Origin: Bolinopsis microptera
Taxonomy: Eukaryota > Ctenophora > Tentaculata > Lobata > Bolinopsidae
Reading direction: 5' to 3'
Length of the DNA stretch: 64,000 nt
NCBI RefSeq assembly: GCF_026151205.1
Contig: NC_087084.1
Span: 7,363,394 to 7,427,393 of the forward strand
Of the stretch, positions 1-58,100 are shown piece by piece; the first letter of the stretch is position 1, and every line of letters starts with the position of its first letter. The notes beneath the pieces were generated by a model. It was not told the origin of the DNA and searched no databases. It was given only the letters and a program-made list of their open reading frames with translations. The translations under genes were made by a program, and so were the position numbers.

Positions 1-1775
1 GGTTCTGACTGTCTTACTAGAAGGTTCTGACTGTCTTACTAGAAGGTTCTGACTGTCTTACTAGAAGGTTCTGACTGTCTTACTAGAAGGTTCTGACTGT
101 CTTACTAGAAGGTTCTGACTGTCTTACTAGAAGGTTCTGACTGTCTTACTAGAAGGTTCTGACTGTCTTACTAGAAGGTCTGACTGTCTTACTAGAAGGT
201 TCTGACTGTCTTACTAGAAGGTTCTGACTGTCTTACTAGAAGGTTCTGACTGTCTTACTAGAAGGTTCTGACTGTCTTACTAGAAGGTTCTGACTGTCTT
301 ACTAGAAGGTTCTGACTGTCTTACTAGAAGGTTCTGACTGTCTTACTAGAAGGTTCTGACTGTCTTACTAGAAGGTTCTGACTGTCTTACTAGAAGGTTC
401 TGACTGTCTTACTAGAAGGTTCTGACTGTCTTACTAGAAGGTCCTGACTGTCTTACTAGAAGGTTCTGACTGTCTTACTAGAAGGTTCTGACTGTCTTAC
501 TAGAAGGTTCTGACTGTCTTACTAGAAGGTTCTGACTGTCTTACTAGAAGGTTCTGACTGTCTTACTAGAAGGTTCTGACTGTCTTACTAGAAGGTTCTG
601 ACTGTCTTACTAGAAGGTTCTGACTGTCTTACTAGAAGGTTCTGACTGTCTTACTAGAAGGTTCTGACTGTCTTACTAGAAGGTTCTGACTGTCTTACTA
701 GAAGGTTCTGACTGTCTTACTAGAAGGTTCTGACTGTCTTACTAGAAGGTTCTGACTGTCTTACTAGAAGGTTCTGACTGTCTTACTAGAAGGTTCTGAC
801 TGTCTTACTAGAAGGTTCTGACTGTCTTACTAGAAGGTTCTGACTGTCTTACTAGAAGGTTCTGACTGTCTTACTAGAAGGTTCTGACTGTCTTACTAGA
901 AGGTTCTGACTGTCTTACTAGAAGGTTCTGACTGTCTTACTAGAAGGTTCTGACTGTCTTACTAGAAGGTTCTGACTGTCTTACTAGAAGGTCCTGACTG
1001 TCTTACTAGAAGGTTCTGACTGTCTTACTAGAAGGTTCTGACTGTCTTACTAGAAGGTTCTGACTGTCTTACTAGAAGGTTCTGACTGTCTTACTAGAAG
1101 GTTCTTACTGTCTTACTAGAAGGTTCTGACTGTCTTACTAGAAGGTTCTGACTGTCTTACTAGAAGGTCCTGACTGTCTTACTAGAAGGTTCTGACTGTC
1201 TTACTAGAAGGTTCTGACTGTCTTACTAGAAGGTTCTGACTGTCTTACTAGAAGGTTCTGACTGTCTTACTAGAAGGTTCTGACTGTCTTACTAGAAGGT
1301 TCTGACTGTCTTACTAGAAGGTTCTGACTGTCTTACTAGAAGGTTCTGACTGTCTTACTAGAAGGTTCTGACAGTCTTACTAGAAGGTTCTGACTGTCTT
1401 ACTAGAAGGTTCTGACTGTCTTACTAGAAGGTTCTGACTGTCTTACTAGGTACGATGACTAGAGTTCTGACTGTCTTACTAGAAGGTTCTGACTGTCTTA
1501 CTAGAAGGTTCTGACTGTCTTACTAGAAGGTTATGACTGTCTTACTAGAAGGTTCTGACTGTCTTACTAGAAGGTTCTGACTGTCTTACTAGAAGGTTCT
1601 GACTGTCTTACTAGAAGGTTCTGACTGTCTTACTAGAAGGTTCTGACTGTCTTACTAGAAGGTTCTGACTGTCTTACTAGAAGGTTCTGACTGTCTTACT
1701 AGAAGGTTCTGACTGTCTTACTAGAAGGTTCTGACTGTCTTACTAGAAGGTTCTGACTGTCTTACTAGAAGGTTC
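1..1775. repeat. 22-bp satellite array, about 80 copies
   Basis: A near-perfect 22-bp unit (GGTTCTGACTGTCTTACTAG plus AA) runs from the window start to about 1775, with single-base variants and one irregular unit near 1450. It begins 13 bp downstream of the donor of MMP exon 16 (1788, minus strand), so it lies in an intron of that gene. On the minus strand the unit contains ACAGTCAG and GTAAGA, resembling the exon 16 end (ATCAGTCAG followed by GTAATA). It may have grown from that donor region. No coding capacity is claimed. Confidence 0.95.
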
Positions 1776-1787
1776 TAATTATATTAC

Positions 1788-4700
1788 CTGACTGATAAGG
1801 CCATGACTGTGGCTCTGCGTACACACCAGTACTTGGAGTCCACAAGTAGTACTCGCTCTCGAACAGAAACAAAACGTAGTCACGGTAACTGTGGGAATAG
1901 TGTGAGTTGAATGTATCTATTATGTGTATATATATGTTATATGTAACTATTATGTGACCATTATCTCGGAATGACTTTTTTCAGACAGTTCAATAGATAC
2001 ATTTTATGCCAAGACGTTTTGATGTTAATATGAGTTAAAAAACACAGCTCAAATGCGAACGCGCGGCTCAAACGAACCTAGCAATCCCCTTGATTTCCGT
2101 CTGAGGAAGAGGAGCAAAGACAGTGTTTTCCTCATCTTCTCCGTCCATCTCCATCCTAGACTCGTTCCAGTTCCAGCAGTACACTTTCCTTCTTCTGAGG
2201 TAATATGTTGTTTTAAAATGTTATTACTTGCATTTATTAGCATTGATTAGCATTATTTAGCATAAATTAACATTAATTCTTAGTATTAAAATATCTTAAC
2301 TGATTAGTTAGAAACTATAACAAGTTTGCTTTTTCAAATACGTCAGCTTAAAATAATTAAATCCCTCCAACTTGAAAACGACCCTTTTGAAAAGTGTATT
2401 CAAACTCACGGGTAGCTGTTAACAAAGAAGAAGGTCCTGCCATTGTCGTAGTCTGTGAAGGCTGCGTCTACTTCACCCTCCACTCCCGGCCATTGTTCAG
2501 CTACATTCTGGGGGTACCCTTCTGATACAACCGGCATGTTCCTGGTTAGTTTGGTTAGTGTAGTTAGTGGGTTAGTGTGGTTAGTGTGGTTAGTGTGGTT
2601 AGTGTGGTTAGTAGGGTTAGTGTGGTTAGTGTGGTTAGTGTGGTTAGTGTGGTTAGTAGGGTTAGTGTGGTTAGTAGGGTTAGTGTGGTTAGTGTGGTTA
2701 GTGTGTTTAGTGTGTTTAGTGTGGTTAGGGTGGTTAGGGTGGTTAGTGTGGTTAGTGTGTTTAGTGTGGTTAGTGTGTTTAGTGTGGTTAGGGTGGTTAG
2801 TGTGGTTAGTGTGGTTAGTGTGGTTAGTAGGGTTAGTGTGGTTAGTGTGGTTAGTGTGTTTAGTGTGTTTAGTGTGGTTAGGGTGGTTAGGGTGGTTAGT
2901 GTGGTTAGTGTGGTTAGTGTGGTTACTGCATGGTTTCTATGGTTACTGCATGGTTTCTGTGGTTACTGTGTTCAGGTTCACATTACTTTTTAAGTCAGCA
3001 ACGTTTTGTCTATTTTTGACCTCTCTGCCACCCCTTATCATTAAACAATAAACCCTGCTAAAACTGTGACCCACCTTTCATCAGCCTCCAGTCTGACGTA
3101 ATAAACCCTGCTAAAACTGTGACCCACCTTTCATCAGCCTCAAGTCTGACGTAATAAACCCTGCTAAAACTGTGACCCACCTTTCATCAGCTTCAAGTCT
3201 GGCGTAATAAACCCTGCTAAAACTGTGACCCACCTTTCATCAGCCTCCAGTCTGGCGTAATAAACCCTGCTAAAACTGTGACCCACCTTTCATCAGCCTC
3301 CAGTCTGACGTAATAAACCCTGCTAAAACTGTGACCCACCTTTCATCAGCCTCCAGTCTGACGTAATAAACCCTGCTAAAACTGTGACCCACCTTTCATC
3401 AGCCTCCAGTCTGACGTAATAAACCCTGCTAAAACTGTGACCCACCTTTCATCAGCCTCCAGTCTGACGTAATAAACCCTGCTAAAACTGTGACCCACCT
3501 TTCATCAGCCTCCAGTCTGACGTAATAAACCCTGCTAAAACTGTGACCCACCTTTCATCAGCCTCCAGTCTGACGTAATAAACCCTGCTAAAACTGTGAC
3601 CCACCTTTCATCAGCCTCCAGTCTGACGTAATAAACCCTGCTAAAACTGTGACCCACCTTTCATCAGCCTCCAGTCTGACGTAATAAACCCTGCTAAAAC
3701 TGTGACCCACCTTTCATCAGCCTCCAGTCTGACGTAATAAACCCTGCTAAAACTGTGACCCACCTTTCATCAGCCTCCAGTCTGACGTAATAAACCCTGC
3801 TAAAACTGTGACCCACCTTTCATCAGCCTCCAGTCTGACGTAATAAACCCTGCTAAAACTGTGACCCACCTTTCATCAGCCTCCAGTCTGACGTAATAAA
3901 CCCTGCTAAAACTGTGACCCACCTTTCATCAGCCTCCAGTCTGACGTAATAAACCCTGCTAAAACTGTGACCCACCTTTCATCAGCCTCCAGTCTGACGT
4001 AATAAACCCTGCTAAAACTGTGACCCACCTTTCATCAGCCTCCAGTCTGACGTAATAAACCCTGCTAAAACTGTGACCCACCTTTCATCAGCCTCCAGTC
4101 TGACGTAATAAACCCTGCTAAAACTGTGACCCACCTTTCATCAGCCTCAAGTCTGACGTAATAAACCCTGCTAAAACTGTGACCCACCTTTCATCAGCCT
4201 CCAGTCTGACGTAATAAACCCTGCTAAAACTGTGACCCACCTTTCATCAGCCTCAAGTCTGACGTAATAAACCCTGCTAAAACTGTGACCCACCTTTCAT
4301 CAGCTTCAAGTCTGACGTAATAAACCCTGCTAAAACTCACTAAAACTGTGACCCACCTTTCATCAGCCTCAAGTCTGACGTATGTACCACCTGAGATGAC
4401 GTAGGCATACTTTTCCGTGGGGTGGTTGAAGGCTGCGTGGATCTCAGATAGGCAACCTCTTCCATCTTCTGAAATGTAGTGATGTTAGTAATCTGCACTC
4501 TAGGGGATGCTTGCCTAATAAAACAATTCAGTAGATTATCACGATAGTTTAAAGTTTTGGCGTGATTCTGTATAACGCTTGAATATCACTTATATGAATG
4601 TACTGATAACAAATTGATATCAATAAAACTTTTACCAGATTCTGGAAAGTCTCCAATTTCAATGTTGTCAGGTCCAATTCCTTCAGTGGCTCCTTCTTCA

Positions 4701-7700
4701 GAGTCACTGTCCTCTCCCTCAGAATCATCACCACTGGATCCACCGAGTGGCCTTACCGCACCGTTTCCTTCCCCTAATATAATCCCACATTATTAACGTT
4801 ATAACATATGTTAAGCGTTATAAAATTTCAATATTTCAACTATGTTCAAATTAAAAGTTATTGCAATTATCATATGCCAGATATTCGGTGCAAAATGAAT
4901 AACGTTTGCACGTAATCTACTGATCAGCTTCTAAATTTTCGTACTTAATTTTACCACTCTAGAAAATTAACTGTCCACTAATCTAATAAAACACGAAGCG
5001 TTAAATAATCGTCAATCGTACAAATAAACGTTTATTTTACTGCAGCATGACTTACCGAAAAGAGCTCTGGCTGCTGTAATGTCATCATCAGTTAAATCAA
5101 TCTCTGTCTTGTACCCTGAAATCAAATAGGTTTTAAAACTAGATTCATGACACATATCAAATCACACATTTGTCATTTTCACAGCAATTTAAAGCCAATT
5201 CAGAGTTTTTCAAATCAATTGTTGTTGTTTTTGTTGGCCATAACTTGGACCATATATAAACTTAGAAGTTTCACATATTTTGATAAACTGAACAGTAAAG
5301 AACTGCTATTATCAGAAGTCAACGACTAAACAGGGTTATTGTAATGAAAATGAAATGATGGCGTCTGGACTTGAAAGTTTCACTTTCATTTTCAGCTCGC
5401 AGTATATTACATTATATATACCAGGATAGTAAGGTCCCATCACAGCTTTCTTCACGTCAGTGTGTCTGATACCTAACACGTGACCAAACTCATGTGTAGC
5501 TACGTAGTAGAGATTGGTTCCGGAATACTGGTCAGCAGTGAACTTCTCATCATCATCAAAATGCATCTGGGTTGTTATTGTATTGGTTACTGTGGTAACT
5601 GTATCTGGGTTGTTATTGCATTGGTTACTGTGGTAACTGTATCTGGGTTGTTATTGCATTGGTTACTGTGGTTACTGTTGTTACTGTGGTTACTGTGGTT
5701 ACTGTGGTTACTGTGGTTAATGTATATGGGTTGTTATTGCATTGGTTACTGTGGTTACTGTGGTTACTGTGGTTAATGTATATGGGTTGTTATTGCATTG
5801 GTTACTGTGGTTACGGTGGTTACTGTGGTTACTGTGGTTAATGTATATGGGTTTTATTGCATTGGTTACTGTGGTTACTGTGGTTACTGTGGTTACTATG
5901 GTTACTGCATATGAATTGTTATTGGATTGGTTATTGTGGTTAATGTGGTTATTGTGGTTATTGTGATTACTGTTGGGTTGTTATTGCATTGGTTAACAAT
6001 GCGAAACAAGCAAGCACACAGAAGCTAGACCGTCGAACAAAATTTAGGTAAAGAATGCATTTTCTCACAGTAATCAAATTTAATGAAATCAAATTTAAAA
6101 TGAAATAGTCAAATAATTGAACCACTCACTTCTCCTTTTCTGGGATAGTAACCGTGTGCTAGCACACCACCAGGTCCTGAAAAAGCGTACTTATCTCCGT
6201 GATTTCCAGAACCAAAACCTATTGACACATCTGCATCATCTTCATTGTCAACCTGGGGAGAGAAAAATCTTAAAAAGATTGCGCTCTATTTTTCAAATGG
6301 CTGATCTCTGTCGGTTTATTCCTATGCACGTATAAACGGTAAAGATTGGGTTTATTTAGCGTAAACAAACAAAAAATCCACAAAAAACCTCTATGAAGTT
6401 TATTTGAGCTACTTCCGTCCATTCCCTGAGCCCCCTTTCAATTTCTCTTCTCTGAATTTCTAGGGAGAGGTCCTCTGTGTAAGATTCGAAGAAATACCTG
6501 AAAGATTATGTAAAAGAGAAAAATAGTTATAGTAAAGGTAACGGTAACGGAATATTTGGCCACCCAAAACAACAAAAACAACTTTTATGATAGTGCAGCC
6601 TGCGAAAGAACATCCGAATCATGAATACGTACTTGAAATCCCCGCTTTTCCATGTCCGGCCGGAAACAACTTCCCATCTTTTCTGTCTGCTCAGTGATCT
6701 CCTTCTTCTATCAAGATATTCTGAATTTTCTTCGTTTTCCTGTTCAGCGATACAGTCAGGAGTTTCTGTGGAAAAATCAATACGGTTACCGGTTGATTAC
6801 CTCTTCATAACCTTTTTATCGATATCAGATTAAAGAGACTATAAGATAGTAGTCTTAAGTTTAATTTAAACTCACCACATAAAATGAAAAATATAATAAA
6901 CTAGTAACCTTCTCAGGACATATTGCGCACATACACTCAGTGTTTTATATTATAATTTTTATGGAATAAACACACATAACTGGTGACCTTTGCGTCCCTG
7001 TGGTAACCTGAGTAGCTTTAAATTCCTAGCGTAATCTAATAAGCAGGATTTGCAGGATATTCAGCCTTGCAGAATGCTGCGATCCTATTGGCTAGTAAAA
7101 AGGTTCACACTCCCTTCTCATTCGATAACGAAGTTAGCTTCCTCACTGATCTGATTTCTGCTGCAGTATTTTAAAATATATTCGCCCTGCTGTTAATGTT
7201 ATTATGCAACGTGTCCATTATATTCCTGAAGGTAGCTCTAGTACTGGGTTTTTCGTTATGGTTCCCAGGGTACCATTCAAACTCAGTACACGTAGCACCA
7301 CAATTTTACAATTAATGGTATTTTCCGGCTTTGGATTTACTATTTCATTCTACCCTAATGCATATTCACTTTGATAATGTTAATCGTTTGTTTTTGATAA
7401 TTTTAGGCTTGTCTCTCGATGCGGACACCAATTATCATGGTGATCCGGCTGGAATGTTATTGTTCAAACGTGCTAGCTTTTATCGACTATCACTGTGTTT
7501 TAGACGTATTATAACTATAATGATTTTGCATATCCTTTTTCTGCCAAGTTTTCAACTCCATTTAAGAGAATTGATTTTAACGGAGAGTCAATTTTTGGCC
7601 AATTTTCAGAGCTTTTAGCCGTTGCCGGGGAGATTTTGCCAAGTTTAAAATATAGTATCGATAGAAGGTAAAAACTTACCACATCCAACATCAGGATTGC

Positions 7701-10700
7701 CACACCTCTCTTTAGTCATCAGTTCCCTGGTTTCCTTGGTGAGCCGTCCTGAGGGTTCCAATTTGTTGAACACTTGGAATTCCTTGATAGCTTGTGTGAT
7801 CGCACATGGGGGTATCTAGGGGAAGGTTGTTTGGTTACGTGGGGAACACGTGCAGTCACACGTGCAGTCACACGTGCAGTAACACGTGCAGTCACACGTG
7901 CAGTCACACGTACAGTCACACGTGCAGTCACACGTGCAGTCACACGTGCAGTCCGATACATTTTAATATATTTGTAAGTGTCGAAGTACTAAAGTAATAA
8001 TAAAATCGATAACATTGAATCCACATTATAAAGTTATAACAAAGAAGTACATACTTATTATCTAATGATTGAATATATTAATTATTTAATGATTTTCTTA
8101 CCCCTCCTTGGTAGTTCTCAAGTTTGTTGGGTGACATTCCTAAAACCTTGGCAAAGAAACCGAACGTTCTGAGGTAACCCTGAGAAAGGATTTCTGTTTT
8201 TAAAATATGTTAATTAAAATTAATTATATTATATATATGTATATATATATTATATATATATTATTATTATACATTTATTATCATCTTCAATCTTCATTTG
8301 ACAATAAAAAAGACTTTACGATTCCTTGGTGATTTTAGTTATCCTGTCTTCCTGTAATCTTTTAATAAAGCTTACCACGACAGTTTTAGTCTCCCCAAAT
8401 ACTTTAGTTATCAGGGAGGTCAAGGGTCCAGACACAGGTTCTGTGATATCAACATCTCCCTCATCAAAGTTCTCGTCTGCAGGATCTTGAATGAGTCGTC
8501 CTAACATTCTCCGGAACATGGAGTCAGCTGCGAGTTTAAGATTGGTTATTATAGTTACTATGGTTAGTTAATATAGTTACATGGAGTCAGCTGCGAGTTT
8601 AAGATTGGTTAGTATAGTTACTATGGTTAGTTAATATAGTTACATGGAGTCAGCTGCGAGTTTAAGATTGGTTATTATAGTTACTATGGTTAGTTAATAT
8701 AGTTACATGGAGTCAGCTGCGAGTTTAAGATTGGTTACTATAGTTACTATGGTTAGTTAATATAGTTACATGGACTCAGCTGCGAGTTTAAGATTGGTTA
8801 CTATAGTTACTATGGTTAGTTAATATAGTTACATGAAGTCAGCTGCGAGTTTTGCGTTTATCAAATTTTTGGATGAAAAATGGGTAAATTTTCATTGCTG
8901 AAGGGTGTGGGAAGCAGCATTAAACGTTGCAGCTTTGCTTACGTTTTTTAATATTCCTTGCGATTACTTTGCGAATGAACCCTCCCATTGCAGTACCCTG
9001 AATCTTCTGGATAAGTTTATCAATCGTGTTCTGTTCAGTCGGGTCTGAAATTAGTTTAAACTTTAAAATAGGTTTAAAATAGGTTTAAAATAGGTTTAAA
9101 ATAGGTTTACCAACGCATTGAGATATCGTTTGACTACTGGGGAAAATGAAAGTCTATTCATTTTGAAACAAGATACGTCGATATATTGTCAACGTTACGG
9201 GTATACATGCCTTTGTCATTTCGTCCTCAGTTTGACAACAAAGAAACAAATTGATGGATTATACGAGTTGACACACGGACTGACTTACCGACACCAATAA
9301 AGTTAACAACACAAACAAACATACACACTGACTTACCGACACCAATAAAGTTAACAACACAAACAAACAGACGCACTGACTTACCGACACCAATAAAGTT
9401 AACAACATGAACAAACATACACACTAACTTACCGACACCAATAAAGTTAACAACACAAACAAACAGACACACTGACACAATAAAGTTAACAACACAAACA
9501 AACATACACACTGACTTACCGACACCAATAAAGTTAACAACACACAAACAAACAGACGCACTGACTTACCGACACCAATAAAGTTAACAACACAAACAAA
9601 CAGACACACTGACTTACCGACACCAATAAAGTTAACAACACAAACAAACAGACACACTAACTTACCGACACCAATAAAGTTAACAACACAAACAAACAGA
9701 CACACTAACTTACCGACACCAATAAAGTTAACAACACAAACAAACAGACACACTAACTTACCGACACCAATAAAGTTAACAACACAAACAAACAGACACA
9801 CTAACTTACCGACACCAATAAAGTTAACAACACAAACAAACATACACACTAACTTACCGACACCAATAAAGTTAACAACACAAACAAACAGACACACTAA
9901 CTTACCGACACCAATAAAGTTAACAACACAAACAAACAGACAAACTAACTTACCGACACCAATAAAGTTAACAACACAAACAAACAGACATACTGACTTA
10001 CCGACACCAATAAAGTTAACAACACAAACAAACAGACACACTAACTTACCGACACCAATAAAGTTAACAACACAAACAAACAGACACACTGACTTACCGA
10101 CACCAATAAAATCAACAACACAAACAAACAGACACACTAACTTACCGACACCAATAAAGTTAACAACACAAACAAACAGACACACTAACTTACCGACACC
10201 AATAAAGTTAACAACACAAACAAACATACACACTGACTTATCAACACCAATAAAGTTAACAACACAAACAAACATACACACTAACTTACCGACACCAATA
10301 AAGTTAACAACACAAACAAACATACACACTAACTTACCGACACCAATAAAGTTAACAACACAAACAAACATACACACTGACTTACCGACACCAATAAAGT
10401 TAACAACACAAACAAACAGACGCACTGACTTACCGACACCAATAAAGTTAACAACATGAACAAACATACACACTAACTTACCGACACCAATAAAGTTAAC
10501 AACACAAACAAACAGACACACTGACACAATAAAGTTAACAACACAAACAAACATACACACTGACTTACCGACACCAATAAAGTTAACAACACACAAACAA
10601 ACAGACGCACTGACTTACCGACACCAATAAAGTTAACAACACAAACAAACAGACACACTGACTTACCGACACCAATAAAGTTAACAACACAAACAAACAG

Positions 10701-12317
10701 ACACACTAACTTACCGACACCAATAAAGTTAACAACACAAACAAACAGACACACTAACTTACCGACACCAATAAAGTTAACAACACAAACAAACAGACAC
10801 ACTAACTTACCGACACCAATAAAGTTAACAACACAAACAAACAGACACACTAACTTACCGACACCAATAAAGTTAACAACACAAACAAACATACACACTA
10901 ACTTACCGACACCAATAAAGTTAACAACACAAACAAACAGACACACTAACTTACCGACACCAATAAAGTTAACAACACAAACAAACAGACAAACTAACTT
11001 ACCGACACCAATAAAGTTAACAACAGAAACAAACAGACATACTGACTTACCGACACCAATAAAGTTAACAACACAAACAAACAGACACACTAACTTACCG
11101 ACACCAATAAAGTTAACAACACAAACAAACAGACACACTGACTTACCGACACCAATAAAATCAACAACACAAACAAACAGACACACTAACTTACCGACAC
11201 CAATAAAGTCAACAACACAAACAAACAGACACACTAACTTACCGACACCAATAAAGTTAACAACACAAACAAACAGACACACTAACTTACCGACACCAAT
11301 AAAGTTAACAACACAAACAAACATACACACTGACTTATCGACACCAATAAAGTTAACAACACAAACAAACATACACACTAACTTACCGACACCAATAAAG
11401 TTAACAACACAAACAAACATACACACTAACTTACCGACACCAATAAAGTTAACAACACAAACAAACATACACACTGACTTACCGACACCAATAAAGTTAA
11501 CAACACAAACAAACAGACGCACTGACTTACCGACACCAATAAAGTTAACAATACAAACAAACATACGCACTGACTTACCGACACCAATAAAGTTAACAAC
11601 ACAAACAAACAGACGCACTGACTTACCGACACCAATAAAGTTAACAACACAAACAAACATACACACTGACTTACCGACACCAGCAAATCGTTCATCGTTC
11701 TCGTCAAACTGACAGCTGAGTACCTCCTCCTCTGAAGAATCGCCAGAATTAAGTTAATAACAATAAGAAACAATATCAGACTTAACCTTGGCTAGATTTG
11801 TTACTTTTTCATGTTGCAGATTTTGGAGCTCAACAATGACGACGAGGTACCCTAGGAGAAATTCTTTTCAAAAACAAGGTGGGAAGCAGAACAGTGTTTA
11901 CAACTTTACGAGCAACCCAGAATGGAACCTAACAAAAATAAAAACAATCCAGTGTTTGTATATTTTTAACATTTTATCCACAATTTTATACCTTCATACC
12001 AAAACTTTTGAGCTTCTGAGTTCACTTTTACATTAAAACATTTAGCCATGATGATAAATGTAAAAATAAATAAGAATTTTAAAGACGTAAAAATACATAT
12101 AAAGTAATAACAAACCAGGAGCTTCAGGAGCTTCAGGAGGAGTTTCAGATTCTGATTGAGGAGCTGCCGAATCTGCAGGAGCTGCAGAATCTGCTTCAGC
12201 TTCAGGAGCTGCAGAATCTGCAGAATCTGCTAATTCATCTACAAAATCAAGATCTGCTTGAGAGAGCGCCCCAATGACCAGTAGCGAGAGCAGTGATATC
12301 ACCACTACTACCTTCAT
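1788..12317 (-). CDS. Secreted matrix metalloproteinase with hemopexin domain (16 exons, 3' end outside window)
   Basis: Zinc endopeptidase of the matrixin (M10A) family, secreted as a zymogen. Exons (minus strand): 12317-12116, 11731-11675, 9044-8943, 8527-8376, 8179-8102, 7815-7680, 6765-6633, 6497-6389, 6252-6130, 5566-5422, 5115-5056, 4773-4636, 4468-4357, 2541-2410, 2194-2078, 1888-1788. All are GT-AG with matching phases, giving about 632 residues to the window edge. Signal peptide is about residues 1-20, followed by an acidic Ala/Ser/Pro segment. The prodomain ends in the cysteine switch ERCGNPDV (Cys235; the canonical form starts PRCG). Furin-type RQKR is at 269-272. The zinc site [11 protein letters not shown] has His389, His393, His399 and catalytic Glu390, with Met-turn Met407. 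An acidic Ser/Asp/Glu hinge precedes hemopexin blades in exons 13-16. A TGA at 2070-2068 would end the protein if exon 15 is not spliced, but the in-phase donor at 2078 and the blade-like exon 16 (YLW, SWPYQ) favour continuation. Most introns hold minisatellites. Exon lengths 6-11 equal those of the paralogue at 31177-61675. Confidence 0.9.
2545..2930. repeat. 9-bp minisatellite next to MMP exon 14 acceptor
   Basis: About 40 degenerate copies of GTTAGTGTG lie immediately upstream (in gene sense) of the exon 14 acceptor at 2541. Read on the gene strand, each unit gives CACACTAAC, so the intron 3' end is an array of CTAAC, a good metazoan branch-point match. Open reading frames through this array are repeat artefacts. 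Confidence 0.9.
3046..4378. repeat. 53-bp minisatellite carrying the exon 13 end and its splice donor
   Basis: About 25 copies of a 53-bp unit fill the intron between hemopexin exons 13 and 14. On the gene strand each unit holds about 24 bp of the exon 13 end (reading VRLEADE), the donor AAAG followed by GTGGGT, then a pyrimidine-rich stretch ending in TTTTAGCAG. The array starts inside exon 13 itself. Each unit therefore repeats a potential 33-nt exon whose frame matches exon 13, with only 20 nt between units. Confidence 0.95.
5578..5995. repeat. Compound minisatellite upstream of the catalytic exon
   Basis: Degenerate repeats of GGTTACTGTG are interspersed with GGGTTGTTATTGCATTGG. On the gene strand the longer block reads AATAACAACCCA, similar to the true acceptor of exon 10 (AACAACCCAG before ATGCAT at 5566). 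Some units contain ACCCAGATACA, so part of the array looks derived from the acceptor and exon start. Confidence 0.85.
7846..7951. repeat. 12-bp minisatellite upstream of the cysteine-switch exon
   Basis: About nine copies of CACGTGCAGTCA lie 30 bp upstream (gene sense) of the exon 6 acceptor at 7815. Each unit contains a CACGTG palindrome. Confidence 0.9.
8517..8845. repeat. 63-bp repeat carrying the exon 4 acceptor, 6 copies
   Basis: Copies start at 8517, 8580, 8643, 8706, 8769 and 8832. On the gene strand each has intron 3' sequence TTAAACTCGCAG followed by the first bases of exon 4 (CTGACTCCATG). Only the copy at 8517-8527 is continuous with the rest of exon 4, so five decoy acceptors lie upstream of it. 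Confidence 0.93.
9062..9109. repeat. Short 11-bp repeat upstream of MMP exon 3
   Basis: Four copies of TAGGTTTAAAA lie just upstream, in gene sense, of the exon 3 acceptor at 9044. Confidence 0.8.
9279..11680. repeat. 48-bp minisatellite carrying the exon 2 donor, with 1049-bp higher-order duplication
   Basis: About 50 copies of a 48-bp unit fill intron 2. On the gene strand each contains GGTGTCG followed by GTAAGT or GTTAGT. This repeats the last 7 nt of exon 2 (ending at 11675) plus its donor. Diagnostic variants (for example ACATGAAC at about 9405 and 10454) recur 1049 bp apart, showing two higher-order copies. Because 48 is a multiple of 3, the exon 2 reading frame stays open through at least 1.2 kb of the array, encoding a hydrophobic 16-residue period ([10 protein letters not shown] and so on). 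Confidence 0.95.
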
Positions 12318-12376
12318 ATTGTTCTACAAGGGTCGCTTAGTTACAATATGTAAAATGTGGACCAGTTAAACTATCG

Positions 12377-12384
12377 TTTATAAA
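12377..12384 (-). promoter_or_regulatory. Candidate TATA box of the MMP gene
   Basis: TTTATAAA lies 60-67 bp upstream of the ATG at 12317 on the minus strand. That spacing would give a 5' UTR of about 30-40 nt. The cysteine protease gene at 58803 has a similar TATA-to-ATG spacing. Inferred from sequence only. Confidence 0.45.
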
Positions 12385-13406: not shown

Positions 13407-13806
13407 AATGTCAGAGTCAGAGTCAGAGTCAGAGTCAGAGTCAGAGTCAGAGTCAGAGTCAGAGTCAGAGTCAGAGTCAGAGTCAGAGTCAGAGTCAGAG
13501 TCAGAGTCAGAGTCAGAGTCAGAGTCAGAGTCAGAGTCAGAGTCAGAGTCAGAGTCAGAGTCAGAGTCAGAGTCAGAGTCAGAGTCAGAGTCAGAGTCAG
13601 AGTCAGAGTCAGAGTCAGAGTCAGAGTCAGATTCAGAGTCAGAGTCAGAGTCAGAGTCAGAGTCAGAGTCAGAGTCAGAGTCAGAGTCAGAGTCAGAGTT
13701 AGAGTCAGAGTTAGAGTCAGAGTCAGAGTCAGAGTCAGAGTCAGAGTCAGAGTCAGAGTCAGAGTCAGAGTCAGAGTCAGAGTCAGAGTCAGAGTCAGAG
13801 TCAGAT
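13407..13806. repeat. (TCAGAG)n hexanucleotide array, about 67 copies
   Basis: An almost pure 6-bp tandem repeat of 400 bp with four single-base changes. It is open in several frames: Ser-Glu on the plus strand, Ser-Asp on the minus strand. The minus frame has non-repeat flanks (222 codons, 13961-13293), but nothing else supports a gene. Confidence 0.95.
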
Positions 13807-26347: not shown

Positions 26348-26385
<38 letters not shown>

Positions 26386-27060: not shown

Positions 27061-27116
27061 TCGATACGTACCTCTGAAGGCAGAGCTCCCGCTTCCGAGA
27101 TCGCATTACAACACAC

Positions 27117-46100: not shown

Positions 46101-49100
46101 TAAAGCAGCCGTATTGATCTTCCAAACCTACAACTTTCAAGGGCTAGAATTCGCTGTATTTTGCCGTTAAAACACAACTTGTACTGTTTCACTTCATGAT
46201 TGGGCCGTAATTCAAAAGCAAATTGGCAAGAAGTGGTGCTCACGGTCTCACTTAACGTCACTTATCGCTCAGTTAAGAGCGACCATGGTCTTAAGCGACA
46301 GACAGCCTGCAGGCATATGATCCGAATACGAAATATCCTTGTGTTCGGCATTTAGTAGCCCTAATTGGTTACTTCGTACCCAGGAAAAGTTACCGGCTGG
46401 TGGTGGTACTAGAGTTGGTTTAATTTAAACAGACGGCTCGACCTCGCGCGCAACAACAAGCATGATTTGCACGCGTGGCGTATTCCAATGTTCAAGCAGC
46501 TACCACGTGACACAATTCAGCCAACCAGAGTACAGGAATCCGCAAAGTTAAAGTTGCAAACTTTTGATCGGCCCGAAAGGGGACTTTTCTGGAGATTTTG
46601 AGATAACTCAACAATTACGTTGTCTTGAATTTTCCTCCTGGAGAGGTAACGTTACTTTTAAAAGAGGAACATGTTACAAAAAACCGGAAGTCTCCAACTC
46701 TTTTACTTTCAAAGTTAAGCCCCATCCGGTCAGGGTTCCTGGGTGCAGCTGGCTGACGCCGAGTAGGGTGTTTTGGCCGTTCTAACTTAAGACTTTTAAG
46801 AATTAAAGCAGCCGTATTGATCTTCCAAACCTACAACTTTCAAGGGCTAGAATTCGCTGTATTTTGCCGTTAAAACACAACTTGTACTGTTTAACTTCAT
46901 GATTGGGCCGTAATTCAAAAGCAAATTGGCAAGAAGTGGTGCTCACGGTCTCACTTAACGTCACTTATCGCTCAGTTAAGAGCGACCATGGTCTTAAGCG
47001 ACAGACAGCCTGCAGGCATATGATCCGAATACGAAATATCCTTGTGTTCGGCATTTAGTAGCCCTAATTGGTTACTTCGTACCCAGGAAAAGTTACCGGC
47101 TGGTGGTGGTACTAGAGTTGGTTTAATTTAAACAGACGGCTCGACCTCGCGCGCAACAACAAGCATGATTTGCACGCGTGGCGTATTCCAATGTTCAAGC
47201 AGCTACCACGTGACACAATTCAGCCAACCAGAGTACAGGAATCCGCAAAGTTAAAGTTGCAAACTTTTGATCGGCCCGAAAGGGGACTTTTCTGGAGATT
47301 TTGAGATAACTCAACAATTACGTTGTCTTGAATTTTCCTCCTGGAGAGGTAACGTTACTTTTAAAAGAGGAACATGTTACAAAAAACCGGAAGTCTCCAA
47401 CTCTTTTACTTTCAAAGTTAAGCCCCATCCGGTCAGGGTTCCTGGGTGCAGCTGGCTGACGCCGAGTAGGGTGTTTTGGCCGTTCTAACTTAAGACTTTT
47501 AAGAATTAAAGCAGCCGTATTGATCTTCCAAACCTACAACTTTCAAGGGCTAGAATTCGCTGTATTTTGCCGTTAAAACACAACTTGTACTGTTTCACTT
47601 CATGATTGGGCCGTAATTCAAAAGCAAATTGGCAAGAAGTGGTGCTCACGGTCTCACTTAACGTCACTTATCGCTCAGTTAAGAGCGACCATGGTCTTAA
47701 GCGACAGACAGCCTGCAGGCATATGATCCGAATACGAAATATCCTTGTGTTCGGCATTTAGTAGCCCTAATTGGTTACTTCGTCTACCCAGGAAAAGTTA
47801 CCGGCTGGTGGTGGTACTAGAGTTGGTTTAATTTAAACAGACGGCTCGACCTCGCGCGCAACAACAAGCATGATTTGCACGCGTGGCGTATTCCAATGTT
47901 CAAGCAGCTACCACGTGACACAATTCAGCCAACCAGAGTACAGGAATCCGCAAAGTTAAAGTTGCAAACTTTTGATCGGCCCGAAAGGGGACTTTTCTGG
48001 AGATTTTGAGATAACTCAACAATTACGTTGTCTTGAATTTTCCTCCTGGAGAGGTAACGTTACTTTTAAAAGAGGAACATGTTACAAAAAACCGGAAGTC
48101 TCCAACTCTTTTACTTTCAAAGTTAAGCCCCATCCGGTCAGGGTTCCTGGGTGCAGCTGGCTGACGCCGAGTAGGGTGTTTTGGCCGTTCTAACTTAAGA
48201 CTTTTAAGAATTAAAGCAGCCGTATTGATCTTCCAAACCTACAACTTTCAAGGGCTAGAATTCGCTGTATTTTGCCGTTAAAACACAACTTGTACTGTTT
48301 CACTTCATGATTGGGCCGTAATTCAAAAGCAAATTGGCAAGAAGTGGTGCTCACGGTCTCACTTAACGTCACTTATCGCTCAGTTAAGAGCGACCATGGT
48401 CTTAAGCGACAGACAGCCTGCAGGCATATGATCCGAATACGAAATATCCTTGTGTTCGGCATTTAGTAGCCCTAATTGGTTACTTCGTACCCAGGAAAAG
48501 TTACCGGCTGGTGGTGGTACTAGAGTTGGTTTAATTTAAACAGACGGCTCGACCTCGCGCGCAACAACAAGCATGATTTGCACGCGTGGCGTATTCCAAT
48601 GTTCAAGCAGCTACCACGTGACACAATTCAGCCAACCAGAGTACAGGAATCCGCAAAGTTAAAGTTGCAAACTTTTGATCGGCCCGAAAGGGGACTTTTC
48701 TGGAGATTTTGAGATAACTCAACAATTACGTTGTCTTGAATTTTCCTCCTGGAGAGGTAACGTTACTTTTAAAAGAGGAACATGTTACAAAAAACCGGAA
48801 GTCTCCAACTCTTTTACTTTCAAAGTTAAGCCCCATCCGGTCAGGGTTCCTGGGTGCAGCTGGCTGACGCCGAGTAGGGTGTTTTGGCCGTTCTAACTTA
48901 AGACTTTTAAGAATTAAAGCAGCCGTATTGATCTTCCAAACCTACAACTTTCAAGGGCTAGAATTCGCTGTATTTTGCCGTTAAAACACAACTTGTACTG
49001 TTTAACTTCATGATTGGGCCGTAATTCAAAAGCAAATTGGCAAGAAGTGGTGCTCACGGTCTCACTTAACGTCACTTATCGCTCAGTTAAGAGCGACCAT

Positions 49101-52100
49101 GGTCTTAAGCGACAGACAGCCTGCAGGCATATGATCCGAATACGAAATATCCTTGTGTTCGGCATTTAGTAGCCCTAATTGGTTACTTCGTACCCAGGAA
49201 AAGTTACCGGCTGGTGGTGGTACTAGAGTTGGTTTAATTTAAACAGACGGCTCGACCTCGCGCGCAACAACAAGCATGATTTGCACGCGTGGCGTATTCC
49301 AATGTTCAAGCAGCTACCACGTGACACAATTCAGCCAACCAGAGTACAGGAATCCGCAAAGTTAAAGTTGCAAACTTTTGATCGGCCCGAAAGGGGACTT
49401 TTCTGGAGATTTTGAGATAACTCAACAATTACGTTGTCTTGAATTTTCCTCCTGGAGAGGTAACGTTACTTTTAAAAGAGGAACATGTTACAAAAAACCG
49501 GAAGTCTCCAACTCTTTTACTTTCAAAGTTAAGCCCCATCCGGTCAGGGTTCCTGGGTGCAGCTGGCTGACGCCGAGTAGGGTGTTTTGGCCGTTCTAAC
49601 TTAAGACTTTTAAGAATTAAAGCAGCCGTATTGATCTTCCAAACCTACAACTTTCAAGGGCTAGAATTCGCTGTATTTTGCCGTTAAAACACAACTTGTA
49701 CTGTTTAACTTCATGATTGGGCCGTAATTCAAAAGCAAATTGGCAAGAAGTGGTGCTCACGGTCTCACTTAACGTCACTTATCGCTCAGTTAAGAGCGAC
49801 CATGGTCTTAAGCGACAGACAGCCTGCAGGCATATGATCCGAATACGAAATATCCTTGTGTTCGGCATTTAGTAGCCCTAATTGGTTACTTCGTACCCAG
49901 GAAAAGTTACCGGCTGGTGGTGGTACTAGAGTTGGTTTAATTTAAACAGACGGCTTGACCTCGCGCGCAACAACAAGCATGATTTGCACGCGTGGCGTAT
50001 TCCAATGTTCAAGCAGCTACCACGTGACACAATTCAGCCAACCAGAGTACAGGAATCCGCAAAGTTAAAGTTGCAAACTTTTGATCGGCCCGAAAGGGGA
50101 CTTTTCTGGAGATTTTGAGATAACTCAACAATTACGTTGTCTTGAATTTTCCTCCTGGAGAGGTAACGTTACTTTTAAAAGAGGAACATGTTACAAAAAA
50201 CCGGAAGTCTCCAACTCTTTTACTTTCAAAGTTAAGCCCCATCCGGTCAGGGTTCCTGGGTGCAGCTGGCTGACGCCGAGTAGGGTGTTTTGGCCGTTCT
50301 AACTTAAGACTTTTAAGAATTAAAGCAGCCGTATTGATCTTCCAAACCTACAACTTTCAAGGGCTAGAATTCGCTGTATTTTGCCGTTAAAACACAACTT
50401 GTACTGTTTCACTTCATGATTGGGCCGTAATTCAAAAGCAAATTGGCAAGAAGTGGTGCTCACGGTCTCACTTAACGTCACTTATCGCTCAGTTAAGAGC
50501 GACCATGGTCTTAAGCGACAGACAGCCTGCAGGCATATGATCCGAATACGAAATATCCTTGTGTTCGGCATTTAGTAGCCCTAATTGGTTACTTCGTACC
50601 CCAGGAAAAGTTACCGGCTGGTGGTGGTACTAGAGTTGGTTTAATTTAAACAGACGGCTCGACCTCGCGCGCAACAACAAGCATGATTTGCACGCGTGGC
50701 GTATTCCAATGTTCAAGCAGCTACCACGTGACACAATTCAGCCAACCAGAGTACAGGAATCCGCAAAGTTAAAGTTGCAAACTTTTGATCGGCCCGAAAG
50801 GGGACTTTTCTGGAGATTTTGAGATAACTCATTAATTACGTTGTCTTGAATTTTCCTCCTGGAGAGGTAACGTTACTTTTAAAAGAGGAACATGTTACAA
50901 AAAACCGGAAGTCTCCAACTCTTTTACTTTCAAAGTTAAGCCCCATCCGGTCAGGGTTCCTGGGGCAGACATGCTAAAAGCTGGACCATGATCAACAAGA
51001 TCACAGGTAAAGCTCCATCATATACTGGCAAAATCAAGGGAAACTCACCAACGGAAAGGGTTCAGAAATGGAAGGACTATTTTGCTACTCTTCTCGGCTC
51101 ACCACCGACGGTAGAGAACGCGGAAGAGGATATTGATCCAGTCCACCCACCTCTGAATATCGGAACAGAACCGTTTACGTTGGATGAGTACAGGAAAGCA
51201 AAGTCCAGCATAAAGGAAGGGAAAGCATGGGGGGACGACAACATAGCCCCAGAAGTCTTAAAACGATGCGACCTTGATCAAATTGTCTTAGACTTCTGTA
51301 ACAATGCTCTATTGAAAGGTGAGAAACCAGACCAATGGTCAACTGCCAACATCATACCAATTCCAAAGAAGGGCGACCTTAGCGAACCAATGAACTATCG
51401 GGGAATAAGCTTGTCATCCCTAGTTGCCAAGTCTCTAAACAAGATGGTTCTAAATCGGTTGAAGCCAGAAATCGAGACAATTCTGCGTAGAAACCAGAAT
51501 GGATTCAGACCAGGAAGGTCAACAACTCAACAGATATTGGTACTGAGACGTCTTATAGAGGGTGTCAAGAGTCGGAAATTGCCAGCTGTTCTGACATTTA
51601 TAGACTTTAAGAAGGCTTTCGACAGTGTACATCGTGGGAAAATGCTAAAGATTCTAGAAGCTTACGGCATTCCAGTCAAAATCGTGCAGCTTATACGGCT
51701 CATGTACGAGAAGACAATGGCCAAAGTCCTAACTCCAGACGGAGAAACTGAATTGTTCGAGATACTTGCAGGTGTGTTACAGGGTGATACCTTAGCACCT
51801 TACCTCTTTGCAATAGTCATCGACTACTGTATGAGGCAAGCCATAGGCGATGATGCGGAGCGACTTGGACTCACCCTCGAACGTAGAAAAAGCAGAAGAG
51901 TGGGGCCCAAGATAATCACCGATGTGGACTTTGCAGATGATATAGCACTTATATCTGAGGACATGGACAAGGCTAACGAGTTCCTGCTCAGAGTAGAATC
52001 GGCGGCAGCAAGCGTGGGACTACACATAAACGAAGGCAAGACCAAGGTCATGACACTGAATATGGAGGATCGATCTAGCGACCTACAAAGTCGATCCGGG

Positions 52101-55100
52101 GAAGCCATAGAAAATGTAGATGATTTCATCTACTTAGGCTCCTGGATTGAGAGCACAGATAGGGAGATAAGGGTTAGAAAGGGAAAAGCGTGGGGTGCCC
52201 TACATAGACTGAAGGATATCTGGAAATCCAAACTCTCAAAGAGCCTAAAGATTAGATTGTTCATAGCGGCTTGTGAATCAGTACTGCTCTACGGATCAGA
52301 AACCTGGACACTGACAAAGGCTCAAGAGAAAAGTTTGGACGGGACATACACAAAGATGTTGCGTATGGTGCTGGGTATCTCATGGAAGGACAAGGTCAGC
52401 AATATAACTTTGTATGGTAGCCTCCCAAGGCTGTCAAACAAGTTACGAAGCAGGAGATTAAAAATGGCGGGACACTGCATCCGACATCCTGAGCTACTTG
52501 CCAGTGATTTAGTCTTATGGGAACCTACGCACGGTAGAGCACAGCAAGGCCGACCAAGACAAAGCTACTTGTCTATGTTACTGAAGGAAGTTGGGACAAA
52601 CTCTAAAGAGGAACTGCGAACCCTGATGCGGGACAGGGATATATGGAGGGGGTTTTCTGGCGTAGATCGGACTTAGCTCCGACATAGTAGTAGTAGTAGT
52701 AGTTAAAATAGACTAAAAATAAACTAAAAATGAACTAAAAATAAACTTGATAAACTATGGATATTGGATAATCTATTAACAGACTATAAACTTATAAATA
52801 TAATATTACATACCACAGCATTGTCCAGCTTATACCGCTTGTTGTCATAGTTACCGTTTACAATCACCACCGTCTCTACTTCACTTGCTATTGCTAGCTG
52901 CCGAGAATTGTAATTCATATAAAGTTAAACAATTTTATTCATATAATATAATTCATATAAACATTTTTATGCGTTTAATTTGCCTATTTTAAACGTGAAA
53001 TATGCGAAGAAATGGAAATTTAAAACATGTCCAAGTATAGTGCAAGATCAAAGTGAGAAGAAACAGCGGCCAAGAAAATTAGATCATTAAAATACCGTGT
53101 ATTTGAACCAAGCATGTTCCTTTCCTGAGCATTTAGTTTGCGACCTGACAAATAAAAGCTCATGTTAACCATCTGCAACCATCTGCAACATAAATAAATA
53201 TAGAAATAAAATCCGAGTGATAGTAACTAGTGACGACAGCAAGGAGATAAACAAACTCATGCTGGATAGACAGATTTGGAAAAAAACTATTTCTGTGCGG
53301 ACGTTGAAGCCGCCCTTAGTCGAGTAAGTCGAGTAAGTCGAGTAAGTCGAGTAAGTCGAGTAAGTCGTGATAGTAAACAAATATATTTAATTATATCAGT
53401 GGGCCGGTGGGGAGATGCACTATCTTCTTCTGTCTAGCAACAGTGATTACCAAATCAGCTTCTAGCAGAACCCAAAATCACAGCCACGTGTCAAAACAAA
53501 CACGTGTCAAAACAAACACGTGTCAAAACAAACACGTGTCAAAAAAAACATGGGCTCACTTCTCCTAAACCTTATGAATATGATCATGAGTAAATGAAAA
53601 GCTCACTTTGTCCTCAGATCTCCGTCCACAGCGAGGGAAGCATACATTGTTTTAAGAGTACCACTTTGTGTCACCTCCCAATGTGCTACGACAGTGAAAA
53701 GGTAAGGTTTTTCGATACAAGGAACAAGAAAATAAAATAAACTATGCACTTAACAAGTATGAATTCAAGACTTCCTGTATAGCTATTACTGTATAGCAAT
53801 TACTAGTTTTTGTTGTTGGATAAATCTCACTTACGAAGTAGACCAGGTACACCAGGTTCGACAGGCTCCACAGCTTCTGCGGATATAAAGAATCTCAGCG
53901 CTCATTAATTGTTTTTACCGATAGCTCAATTTATAATGACAGACATAACACGAAAATGGAAATGCAACGTGTGCACTGTGCAGGGTGTTGTAGGTTTATA
54001 ACCTTATAACGTACCAAGACGCGCGCCGAGTTGGACTCGTCGACAGTCTTGATATTTGAAACAAATATTTTACGAGTATCAGTGATCACCCGTTAATGCA
54101 GGGTGTCAAGGTAACAGATATCAAAACTCACCAGGACATGCTTCAGTATTACAATTCCGAGTCTCAGAGTCCCCTCCCACACACTCCTCACCACCGTTCT
54201 TAGGAGGAGGATTAGAACAGGTCTTAGTCCTGGTCTGAGACCCCCCTCCACACTCTACTGAACACTCCGACCACGCCCCGAAATCGCTCCACCTTCCGTC
54301 TATTGGAACTGTAATTGTTAGCGGGAATATTATTTTGTAAATGCATGTGTTTGGGTTTCAGAGAAGAAATTAAAACTTTATTTTCTCTCTCTGTATTCAT
54401 TATTATTCAGAAGTTATAACAATCGTTTTCTACTGAATAACATTAGATAACTAAATAAAACTTACCAATACAGTCCACCATATTGCAAGTCCTCATCTCG
54501 GTACCATCTAGATAATAACATAAACCCGCCACGCAAAGGGTTTATATAACAGATCATCCCGCGCTAGCGGGATGATCTGATAAACACATACGAGTGCGCG
54601 CAGCGCACGAGTTTTGTGTTAATATGTAATCCCGAAGCGCCAGCTGAGGGATTACATTTATTTAGCCCTGAGCGTGAAGTGTTTATGGATTATAATTATC
54701 TCCGGCGATTTCGACAAGGGATTTATACTTTAGAAGAGATTGGAAAGCAGTTCATCAATCTGAATGTCAAACCGATCTGTCATAGTGGAGCAATAGCTTG
54801 AACGTTAGCAGGAACAAGAGCTGCATGGAAGGAGAGCAAGCAAAACAATACTATTTTTAGGGCACGGACAAGGGTAGCTGGCTAGTCGCCAACTTCTCAC
54901 GCCACGCGTTGGAGAAATTCCAAGAATTAGCTGCTTTGGCAACGTTCCCAGGAATTTGCGTGTATAAGAAGTGGACGGTTACGATGTTTCATATCACGTG
55001 GTGCGCTTTCGTGTCACGTGGTATAGACTCGGCGTATGCTATTGGTGGCACGTGGTACGCACGTGACGCGCCCACGTGATCGCGCGTCTAACTGTTCTAC

Positions 55101-58100
55101 TATTATCGAGTTCTAATCAGCAGTATCATTGATTATTGTAAGTCGGAGAATTGAATGATAAACATCAGTTACGACTAAAAAGCGGGCCGGGTTTATACAA
55201 ATTTCCGGGGCGGGATGATATCACCTTGAGATGTTTATCTAACAGCGGGCCGGGCTGAGTGATAATATGATCCCGCGTCGAAATCCCGGAGATATTTATA
55301 ACTAAATAAAACTTACCAACACAGTCCACCATGTTGCAAGTCCTCATCTCGGTACCATCTAGATAACTAAATAAAACTTACCAACACAGTCCACCATATT
55401 GCAAGTCCTCATCTCGGTACCATCTAGATAACTAAATAAAACTTACCAACACAGTCCACCATATTGCAAGTCCTCATCTCGGTACCATCCCCCGTACACT
55501 CTGCCCCACCATCCCCAGGTACTGGGTTGGTGCACGTTCTCGTCCGGGTCTGTACACCTCCTCCGCAGACTGTGTTACAATCTGACCAATCTCCGTACTC
55601 GCTCCATCCACCGTCAACTACTAAATAAAACTACCGGTTATAATCTAATTTTCAACTGCTTAGAGTGTATTCGCTCCATCCACCGTCAACTACTGGATAA
55701 AACTACCGGTTATAATCTAATTTTCAATTGCTTAGAGTGTATTCGCTCCATCCACCGTCAACTACTAAATAAAACTACCGGTTATAATCTAATTTTCAAC
55801 TGCTTAGAGTGTATTCGCTCCATCCACCGTCAACTACTGGATAAAACTACCGGTTATAATCTAATTTTCAATTGCTTAGAGTGTACTCGCTCCATCCACC
55901 GTCAACTACTAAATAAAACTACCGGTTATAATTTAATTTTCAACTGCTTAGAGTGTATTCGCTCCATCCACCGTCAACTACCGGTTATAATTTAATTTTC
56001 AACTGCTTAGAATGTCAACTACCGGTTATAATTTAATTTTCAACTGCTTAGAGTGTCAACTACCGGTTATAATTTAATTTCAACTGCTTAGAATGTCAAC
56101 TACAGGTTATAATTTAATTTTCAACTGCTTAGAGTGTTTTGAATTTTCATTTTATAACGATTGTTGGGTTAAATTTTGGCATTAAGAAATAAGAAGAGTT
56201 CATTTTTTCGACTTACCAACAGTTTCGGTTTGACGATCGGTCAACTAGGTTTGAACTTGAATTTTTCGATTGTCAATTTTTTAAGTGTTTAAACTTTTAT
56301 TTTTAATGCTTTAAGGATTATTTACAGTCATTAAGAAGTAATTAAGGATAGTACAGCAATGAAAACATACTTCAATTTTTTCTCTCGACTTACCAACAGT
56401 TTCGGTTTCACGGGCACCTGAAATAGTAATGTGATCCCTTATCTCGAACAATAATTTTAAATTGGAAGATTGTCACTTAGTCAGTAAGATCCTAGTTCAA
56501 TTTGTTACGGAGTTTTATGTAAACAGGAGGTGATGTAACATAGTAGAGGCTCTTACGGGCAAAAAGACGTGTATTCTGCTACGAGTTTAGAGACCTAACC
56601 GCTAATTAGACACAATGGTATGATGTCTAAGGATCGATAATATGTTAAGAAGTATAAATTTGGCCTTATTAGTCACGTGCTATACCAATGCGCGTTTTAA
56701 ACTTTGACAGTCTATTACTCTAAGGCAAATAGAGTAATTATATTTATATTTTTTCAGCAATAAGATCACATTATTTTCTATTTGGTGTGAAAATATGAGC
56801 TAGAACGGACATAATCTCGCTGAGTTATAGCTGTTTGAAATTTATGATGAACGCGCGGATGCCAATTGATAACAACTAAATGCTTTTGCGCGTAGTGCGC
56901 GTCGAAAATTTGGCAAAAACGCTTGCGGAGTGAAAATATTCAAACTTCGATAAAGTATATGAAGTGGGTACTTCTCGGAAAGGAAAAATTTAGGCAAACA
57001 CGATGTGACTATTTTTGGGTTGATTTAATATAACTGCAACAAATTATTCAAACTTCAAGCAAAAAAGTCAAAGTTTTTACCACTTTTTTGGATTTTTAAC
57101 TGCGCTAAAATAGAGGGATTTGTTTTATTTTTATACCATCTTGTGCAGCTGTCTTTTAGCTATCTTTATGCAAGTTTTGCCGACATGCCAACAAAATGAA
57201 CTTGCTCAAATTATCAAAAAACATGGTTTTTTGGCCTATTTTTGGCCCAAAAATCGGTTTTTTGCGATTTTAACCGCGCTAACTCAGTCCAATTATCTTG
57301 AAACCACTTTTAATCGATTATACGGTCAAAAATACGGCTAGTAAGGTGTATCTGGGGTCCCTAGCGTATCGTGCAGACAATGCCCGTAAGAGCCTCTACT
57401 AACAGAGTCGATATATTTTAATGTTGCTATGGGGTGGCAAGTCCCAATTTATTGTAGTCTAATAGTTTCGCTGCATCCAAACATATTTTGTTAAACTCTC
57501 CAAGATTGAAATATTCACAGTTCTTACCAAAGAGGGTTACTGCAGCGCTGATATCGTCTTCAGTAAGATTTATCTCCTCTTTAAATCCTGGGATATGACA
57601 ATTAATTAATTAAGAAGGAGCGCTTTTTCGGTATTTTATACGAAAAATCGTCCAATTTGGCATCAAAATGTACCGGATCCCAGAAAATATTTGGGCCTAC
57701 AAAAAGCTCCATTGTTTTTTAAATATCGTTTGGACATGAAGTGGTAAATACTACAAGTGAGTAGACTCACCAGGGTAACAAGGGTAATACAGCTACAACG
57801 TATTTAAACTAAATACTACAACGAGGGGACATTTACTCGCATTTTTATTGTAGATCAATTTCTACGGGGTATAAAGGCTGACGATCGTTCTTGCCAGCAT
57901 TGTGATCTAGGGGTTAGATTTAGTAGTACATTCACCTGGATAGTAAGGGTACATAACAGCTCCCTTAACGTTCGTGTGTCTGATACCGAGCACGTGGCCG
58001 AATTCGTGGGTAGCTACGTAGTAGAGATTGGTTCCAGAAAACTGGTTAGCAGTGAAAAACTCGTCGTCATCAAAATGCATCTGAAAAAGAGAGGATTTGG

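Follow-up and report, generated by a model that had tools for sequence, protein, structure and literature searches.

Minisatellites spanning exon–intron borders in two metalloprotease genes of the ctenophore Bolinopsis microptera

What places a minisatellite across a splice site? The question is raised by two metalloprotease genes, A and B, both encoded on the minus strand of C13:7363394-7427393 (NC_087084.1) of Bolinopsis microptera, a stretch of 64,000 nucleotides that was analysed as a whole and is called the window here; the assembly comprises 264.65 Mb, divided among 232 contigs of which 13 are large. In both genes, tandem arrays repeat an exon edge together with its splice site. The original prediction, made from the letters of the window, offered two answers: either tandem duplication is triggered at splice sites, or duplications survive only where a working site is kept. 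Our analysis agrees with the survival option and leaves the triggering option, and the premise on which the choice had been built, without support. We consider it likely that the border arrays are minisatellites of the “mirage” type, generated by blind tandem growth that is tolerated at borders since the copy flush with the exon would still give a normal mRNA.

Arrays were located with Tandem Repeats Finder (TRF; 76 rows in the window) and by direct reading on the gene strand. The six arrays predicted to contain both an exon edge and its splice site in their unit were found at or near the positions named for them (Table 1). Their units measured 48–72 bp and were present in 3 to 51 copies, both border types were repeated (four donors and two acceptors), and the part of each array inside the exon measured 8 to 45 bases. 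Ninety of the 98 recognisable junction copies carried no change in the searched motif. Reading by eye indicated that inner copies, if spliced, would shift the frame or introduce stops in five of the six arrays; the exception was the 48-bp array of exon 2, where one frame of that exon continues for 418 codons without a stop. At the exon-4 array, use of an upstream acceptor copy would add stop codons. TRF ended the exon-11 array at 4337, and inspection by eye extended it to about 4382, with the exon bases counted over this extension (exon numbers are those of our own model, in which the exon 13 donor of the original prediction is the exon 11 donor). The exon preceding the donor array at 55298–55489 matched TSP_1 (E 3e-13), and the 72-bp units of the TSP1 acceptor array occupied 55595–55981 before merging into a 41-bp array. 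A seventh array, placed at 5578 by the original prediction and described as abutting, does lie at an acceptor but includes the AG and two exon bases, and therefore comes closer to a junction array than had been proposed.

We compared these arrays with 107 other loci (L001–L107; 174 kb) surrounding exons with matches to TSP1, M10, kinase, ion-channel, CUB, and fn3 models. The loci were hand-picked from profile-match lists, mostly as exons with short open frames, and form a non-random sample from which further matches with internal stops were left out. Splice sites were called from 146 matches, yielding 99 donors and 99 acceptors (198 sites, which are not all independent because several TSP1 exons are recent tandem copies); 94 of the 292 possible sites were left out for weak or distant splice consensus, and 16 rows with internal stops were restored for this count. 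In a narrower sample of 88 donors and 88 acceptors, from which matches with internal stops had been dropped, two sites lay in arrays; dropping such matches selects against border arrays, as the loss of L073 through that filter shows.

Whereas the repeats had been described as centred on splice sites, only 3 of the 198 sites lay within an array (95% interval 0.3–4.4%), and coverage was flat or falling towards the exon. Of the three strict cases, two were acceptors, of a TSP1 exon (L024) and of an ion-channel exon (L077), and one was the donor of an ion-channel exon (L073; Pfam E 2e-9). Arrays with units of 28–120 bp covered 1.0–2.0% of junction bases and 0.8–3.6% of intron bases; long-unit arrays thus occur at borders at about the per-base rate of intronic long-unit arrays in these loci. 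Arrays with units of 9–27 bp were absent from all 198 border exon bases and from the final 10 exon bases, and from 6 nt inward they covered 0.2–4.5% of bases. Short-unit arrays avoid exon edges and long-unit arrays do not, a pattern that fits survival of those duplications that keep a working site. A known exon end was touched by 5 of 19 long-unit arrays versus 3.0 expected (P 0.16), an excess that was not significant; the original prediction had named a lack of enrichment at borders elsewhere in the genome as its refutation, and the sample came out close to that. Several candidates were not counted as border arrays: L072, in which the splice words lay on the antisense strand; L094 and L095, whose donor-like unit lies near an exon end but reads on the opposite strand from the gene; and the 15-bp duplications of two copies each in L029/L030, located where neighbouring TSP1 exons outside the 146 matches have their acceptors.

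These observations suggest a simple course of events. Ordinary tandem duplication by slippage or unequal exchange would hit blindly, and the first duplicated segment may straddle an exon border. The exon-flush copy, that is, the first donor or the last acceptor, would still yield a normal mRNA, and all other copies would be intronic. A straddling duplication would be nearly neutral because the flush copy works and the extra copies fall in the intron, and the array could then grow and be homogenised by unequal exchange. The decoy copies are as intact, at 90 of 98, as homogenising neutral arrays would be.

The foremost alternative, which we consider unlikely, is that splice sites, and strong GTAAGT donors in particular, preferentially set off tandem duplication, for instance through transcription- or splicing-coupled DNA breaks. 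Array coverage was measured against distance at 48 of the 50 window splice sites (two were not located by the script), and no peak was found across the 48. In gene A, coverage was 0.10 at exon bases -5 to 0, 0.16 at intron bases 1–6, 0.21 at bases 7–20, and 0.31–0.38 beyond; in gene B, it was 0.12 up to intron base 20 and 0.19–0.32 beyond. The 198 sampled sites likewise showed no peak, and a factor of about two in favour of splice sites, for long-unit arrays, is compatible with the data. The share of sequence in arrays was 50% over the whole span of gene A, 19% in the gene B tail, and 3% in the catalytic part of gene B, and the border arrays look striking in gene A because half of that gene consists of arrays. 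No support was found for the premise that chance repeats in introns would not include the boundary time and again, as about one third of the intron bases of gene A beyond 20 nt lie in arrays. A distinctly unlikely variant has duplication biased to strong 5' splice sites, where a splicing- or transcription-coupled process would seed minisatellites and multiply exon ends; behind it stand the spacing of AG/GTAAGT, for which a second copy lies 18–48 nt downstream at about 30 times the frequency seen with the reversed word, and a sizeable share of such arrays that would sit at true exon ends (in junction sequences, a slash marks the splice border).

Several results speak for such a bias and weigh against blind growth. 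In the window, eight arrays had units of 30 bp or longer and lay in bounded introns, and six of these included the border; placing arrays uniformly, with no more than 45 bases inside the exon, predicts 2.45 (P 0.003). Raising this limit to 60 bases gave an expectation of 2.70 (P 0.006), and with every array row included, short units among them, the six compared with 2.69 (P 0.03); all these P values are post hoc because the window was picked for this feature. Genome-wide, GTAAGT triples at 20–50 nt spacing numbered 17,659, whereas five other words gave 1,478 to 6,931 (reversed GTAAGT 3,157; GATAGT 6,336 and its reverse 5,482; acceptor-like TTTCAG 6,931 and its reverse 1,478). The word AGGTAAGT formed 1,726 pairs versus 41 for the reversed word, and single copies differed little (10,764 and 7,968, respectively). 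In a unit-word test on 140 arrays, each counted once, from the window and 147 loci (L001–L107 and L134–L173, the latter chosen around single AGGTAAGT sites), GTAAGT occurred in 6 units versus 2.4 expected. Among 89 arrays, a donor score of at least 7 was reached in 2 units versus 0.24 expected, both in related CUB loci and on the strand opposite to the gene; a score of at least 5 was reached in 3 versus 1.7. Finally, the flanks of 15 GTAAGT arrays, 14 of them independent, were read by eye, and 5 of the 14 ended a protein-like exon. The Pfam matches of three of these exons were below the curated cut-offs (L111, E 0.004; L113, E 5e-5; L114, E 0.002), and L109 had no Pfam match. A further GTAAGT array (L116) adjoined acceptor-like sequence on the other strand, and the remaining arrays were without a clear exon. 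The dynein-like exon of L114 (C1:884400-885500), beside its donor array, also contains a direct duplication of its own coding sequence.

The context of the repeated word argues against targeting. CTGTAAGT, which places GTAAGT in a poor donor context, formed 1,669 pairs versus 35 for its reverse, genome-wide; because it forms as many pairs as AGGTAAGT, the GTAAGT excess follows the core in good and poor donor contexts alike. Donor-context words were near expectation in the 140 array units (AGGTAA, 2 versus 3.3; GGTAAG, 3 versus 1.7; GTGAGT, 2 versus 1.6). With CTGTAAGT equally pair-rich and no excess of donor-context words in units, we rejected the GTAAGT excess as proof of targeting, though it is compatible with a modest bias towards donors. 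Word-match counts were dominated by long arrays, and arrays per Mb were inferred from the order of matches listed. Among the matches listed, AGGTAAGT arrays appeared denser (8 places in about 3.1 Mb, two of them sharing a unit) than CTGTAAGT arrays, of which 16 fell within about 37 Mb, a contrast compatible with a donor effect. A protein-like exon was ended by 3 of 7 AGGTAAGT arrays and by about 10 of 40 single AGGTAAGT sites, not a significant difference (P 0.38); restricted to one strand and region, the shares were 2 of 3 and 10 of 40 (P 0.18). The 40 single sites were the first listed on the C1 plus strand, with array sites excluded and the set thinned by removal of one of a close pair and of 7 of the 8 copies of a cluster spaced at about 1 kb. 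Exon ends were called by eye from protein-like open frames, a procedure by which non-coding exons would be missed.

Other words were enriched in the units of the 140 arrays, namely CTAACC (the top 6-letter word, 10 versus 1.3 expected), ACTAA, and CACGTG, and in three gene A arrays beside acceptors, the sense strand repeats words resembling CTAAC or GTAACC. A role of branch points was considered and rejected because CTAAC had no strand bias, with four sense and four antisense occurrences among 105 arrays of known gene strand. A 30-bp array at C1:2294645-2295738 (minus strand), with a unit of TTTCAG, 11 nt, and GTAATT, resembles a repeated micro-exon with both splice signals.

Selection for function, with multiple sites strengthening splicing or varying exon ends, is in our judgement very unlikely. 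The intactness of 90 of the 98 copies would agree with it, as would the open exon-2 array, in which each copy could add 16 residues in frame. However, homogenisation alone accounts for the near-identity of the copies, the 53- and 65-bp units shift the frame, splicing at the inner copies of five of the six arrays would, as read by eye, break the frame or introduce stops, and no shared motif or phase was seen among the arrays. That the exon models are wrong and the arrays are plain intronic repeats or repeats within exons is highly improbable: the borders were indeed drawn from consensus and open frames and some donors are weak, but the exons matching TSP1 (E 3e-13 to 1e-11) and M10 finish close to the sites called, phases checked by eye match at the TSP1 exons and at exons 11–12 of gene A, and an ion-channel exon (E 2e-9) shows the same arrangement, as do, below Pfam cut-offs, dynein-like and sushi-like exons.

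Exon borders in both genes are predicted throughout, from open frames, Pfam matches, and splice consensus. Gene A, which probably runs past the low end of the window, matched M10 (E 3e-17 and 3e-10), PG_binding_1 (E 1e-5), and Hemopexin in exon 12 (E 3e-5), and carries a propeptide exon as well as, recognised by eye, a putative signal peptide; a Pfam search with exon 13 returned no match. Gene B matched M10 (E 4e-17) and, in four exons, TSP_1 (E 2e-13 to 1e-11). We assumed that its exons belong to one gene, although they may represent more than one. Its two short exons, at 34.5 and 31.5 kb, resemble each other and had no Pfam match above the cut-off; a “lectin-like” label given to them was withdrawn, as Pfam gave no support. 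The further arrays that had been said to abut splice sites do lie close to them, but at distances that vary from 0 nt at the exon-12 acceptor to about 33 nt at the catalytic-exon acceptor.

Table 1. Genes, border arrays, and neighbouring arrays of the window, and GTAAGT arrays at exon ends elsewhere. Intact copies are junction copies without change in the searched motif.
Feature	Position	Strand	Exon bases	Intact copies	Basis
Gene A, matrix metalloprotease, 13 exons modelled	1788..12323	-			Open frames, Pfam, splice consensus
Gene B, M10 catalytic exons, four TSP1 exons, two short exons	31450..61675	-			Pfam, splice consensus
48-bp array, exon-2 donor GTCG/GTAAGT at 11675/11674	9279..11682	-	8	47 of 51 (G/GTAAGT)	TRF, direct reading
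53-bp array, exon-11 donor GAAAG/GTGGGT at 4357/4356	3047..4382	-	26	25 of 25 (AAAG/GTGGGT)	TRF, by-eye extension
63-bp array, exon-4 acceptor CGCAG/CTGACT at 8528/8527	8516..8852	-	12	6 of 6 (CGCAG/CTGA)	TRF, direct reading
53-bp array, TSP1 donor at 33637	33297..33681	-	45 in unit	4 of 7	TRF, direct reading
65-bp array, TSP1 donor TTG/GTAAGT at 55447/55446	55298..55489	-	43 in unit	3 of 3	TRF, direct reading
72-bp array, TSP1 acceptor at 55618/55617	55595..56137	-	23	5 of 6	TRF, direct reading
Seventh array, 38–83-bp units, acceptor AG and start of exon 9	5565..5995	-	2		TRF, distance analysis
9-bp array directly adjoining exon-12 acceptor	2543..2968	-	none		TRF, direct reading
22-bp array starting 11 nt past exon-13 donor	1..1776	-			TRF, direct reading
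12-bp array about 31 nt upstream of exon-5 acceptor	7846..7953	-			TRF, direct reading
11-bp array 17 nt upstream of exon-3 acceptor	9062..9109	-			TRF, direct reading
51-bp array about 24 nt upstream of an acceptor	31907..32066	-	none		TRF, direct reading
17/141-bp array about 8 nt upstream of acceptor at 34545	34553..34841	-			TRF, direct reading
6–20-bp array about 33 nt upstream of catalytic-exon acceptor	58114..58162	-			TRF, direct reading
GTAAGT arrays at protein-like exon ends	L109; L111 (sushi-like); L113 and L114 (dynein-like); L121				By-eye reading

Other features were observed in the window. Between exons assigned to gene B, the list of open reading frames revealed near-identical copies about 703 bp apart (35050–52676), and this copy block is adjoined by a reverse-transcriptase-like frame of 578 codons (50940–52676). 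An intronless papain-family protease gene (58770–60050, plus strand; Peptidase_C1, E 1e-51 in Pfam), with a putative ShK-like tail recognised by eye, is nested within a gene B intron and runs in the opposite direction. Genes nested in introns have also been described for the ctenophore Hormiphora (PMC8527503). Two 177-bp minisatellite arrays (29052–29856 and 29973–30665) are inverted and face one another, and a 6-bp GTCAGA array of 66 copies (13410–13805) can be read without stops in several frames on both strands.

Minisatellites that span exon boundaries are a described class, the lancelet “mirages”. In amphioxus (PMC3087553, PMC3902484), these are minisatellite-like tandem duplications of 5' and 3' intron–exon boundaries in Adh3, troponin C, the globins BflGb6 and BflGb9, and PGBD5, with units of 10–72 bp in Adh3 and about 150–160 bp in globins, and with AG/GT retained in many copies; reverse transcription PCR there reportedly points to undisturbed splicing (PMC3087553), which speaks for blind growth. 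The arrays described here share with mirages a unit that spans the boundary, the involvement of both 5' and 3' borders, and the retention of AG/GT in the copies. They differ in reaching 51 copies and in their occurrence in a ctenophore genome and in several unrelated genes. In amphioxus, splicing and instability have been studied, whereas the present arrays are known from the sequence of one assembly; the comparison implies no common ancestry of the arrays. From ordinary intronic minisatellites (variable number tandem repeats), which also consist of near-identical head-to-tail units, they differ in that exon bases and a splice site are part of the unit.

Human introns have reportedly arisen from tandem arrays (Zhuo et al. 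2007). Intron gain in the potato RdRp gene (PMC4974935) reportedly involves a tandem duplication carrying splice signals, in AGGT-containing exon segments; there a new intron was proposed, whereas the Bolinopsis arrays multiply a border that was already present, with no sign of a new intron. Human tandem repeats reported to alter gene structure (PMC2812944) share the expansion of minisatellites in genes. Our literature search found no ctenophore report of border-spanning minisatellites; the reports found were all on lancelets, with the related human work not compared in detail. The Bolinopsis arrays are thus probably mirage-type arrays in a phylum other than that of lancelets.

Border-type arrays recur in unrelated genes of this genome, at ion-channel, dynein-like, sushi-like, and TSP1 exons. 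In Hormiphora, 14 Mb (13%) of the genome was reportedly assigned to repeats by TRF (PMC8527503). The presence of border arrays in several ctenophore genes suggests that they are a general by-product of genomes rich in both tandem repeats and introns. They may continually supply new splice sites and, perhaps, introns, and an exon followed by about fifty identical donors would offer a naturally occurring test of spliceosome choice between equal sites, readable from RNA-seq.

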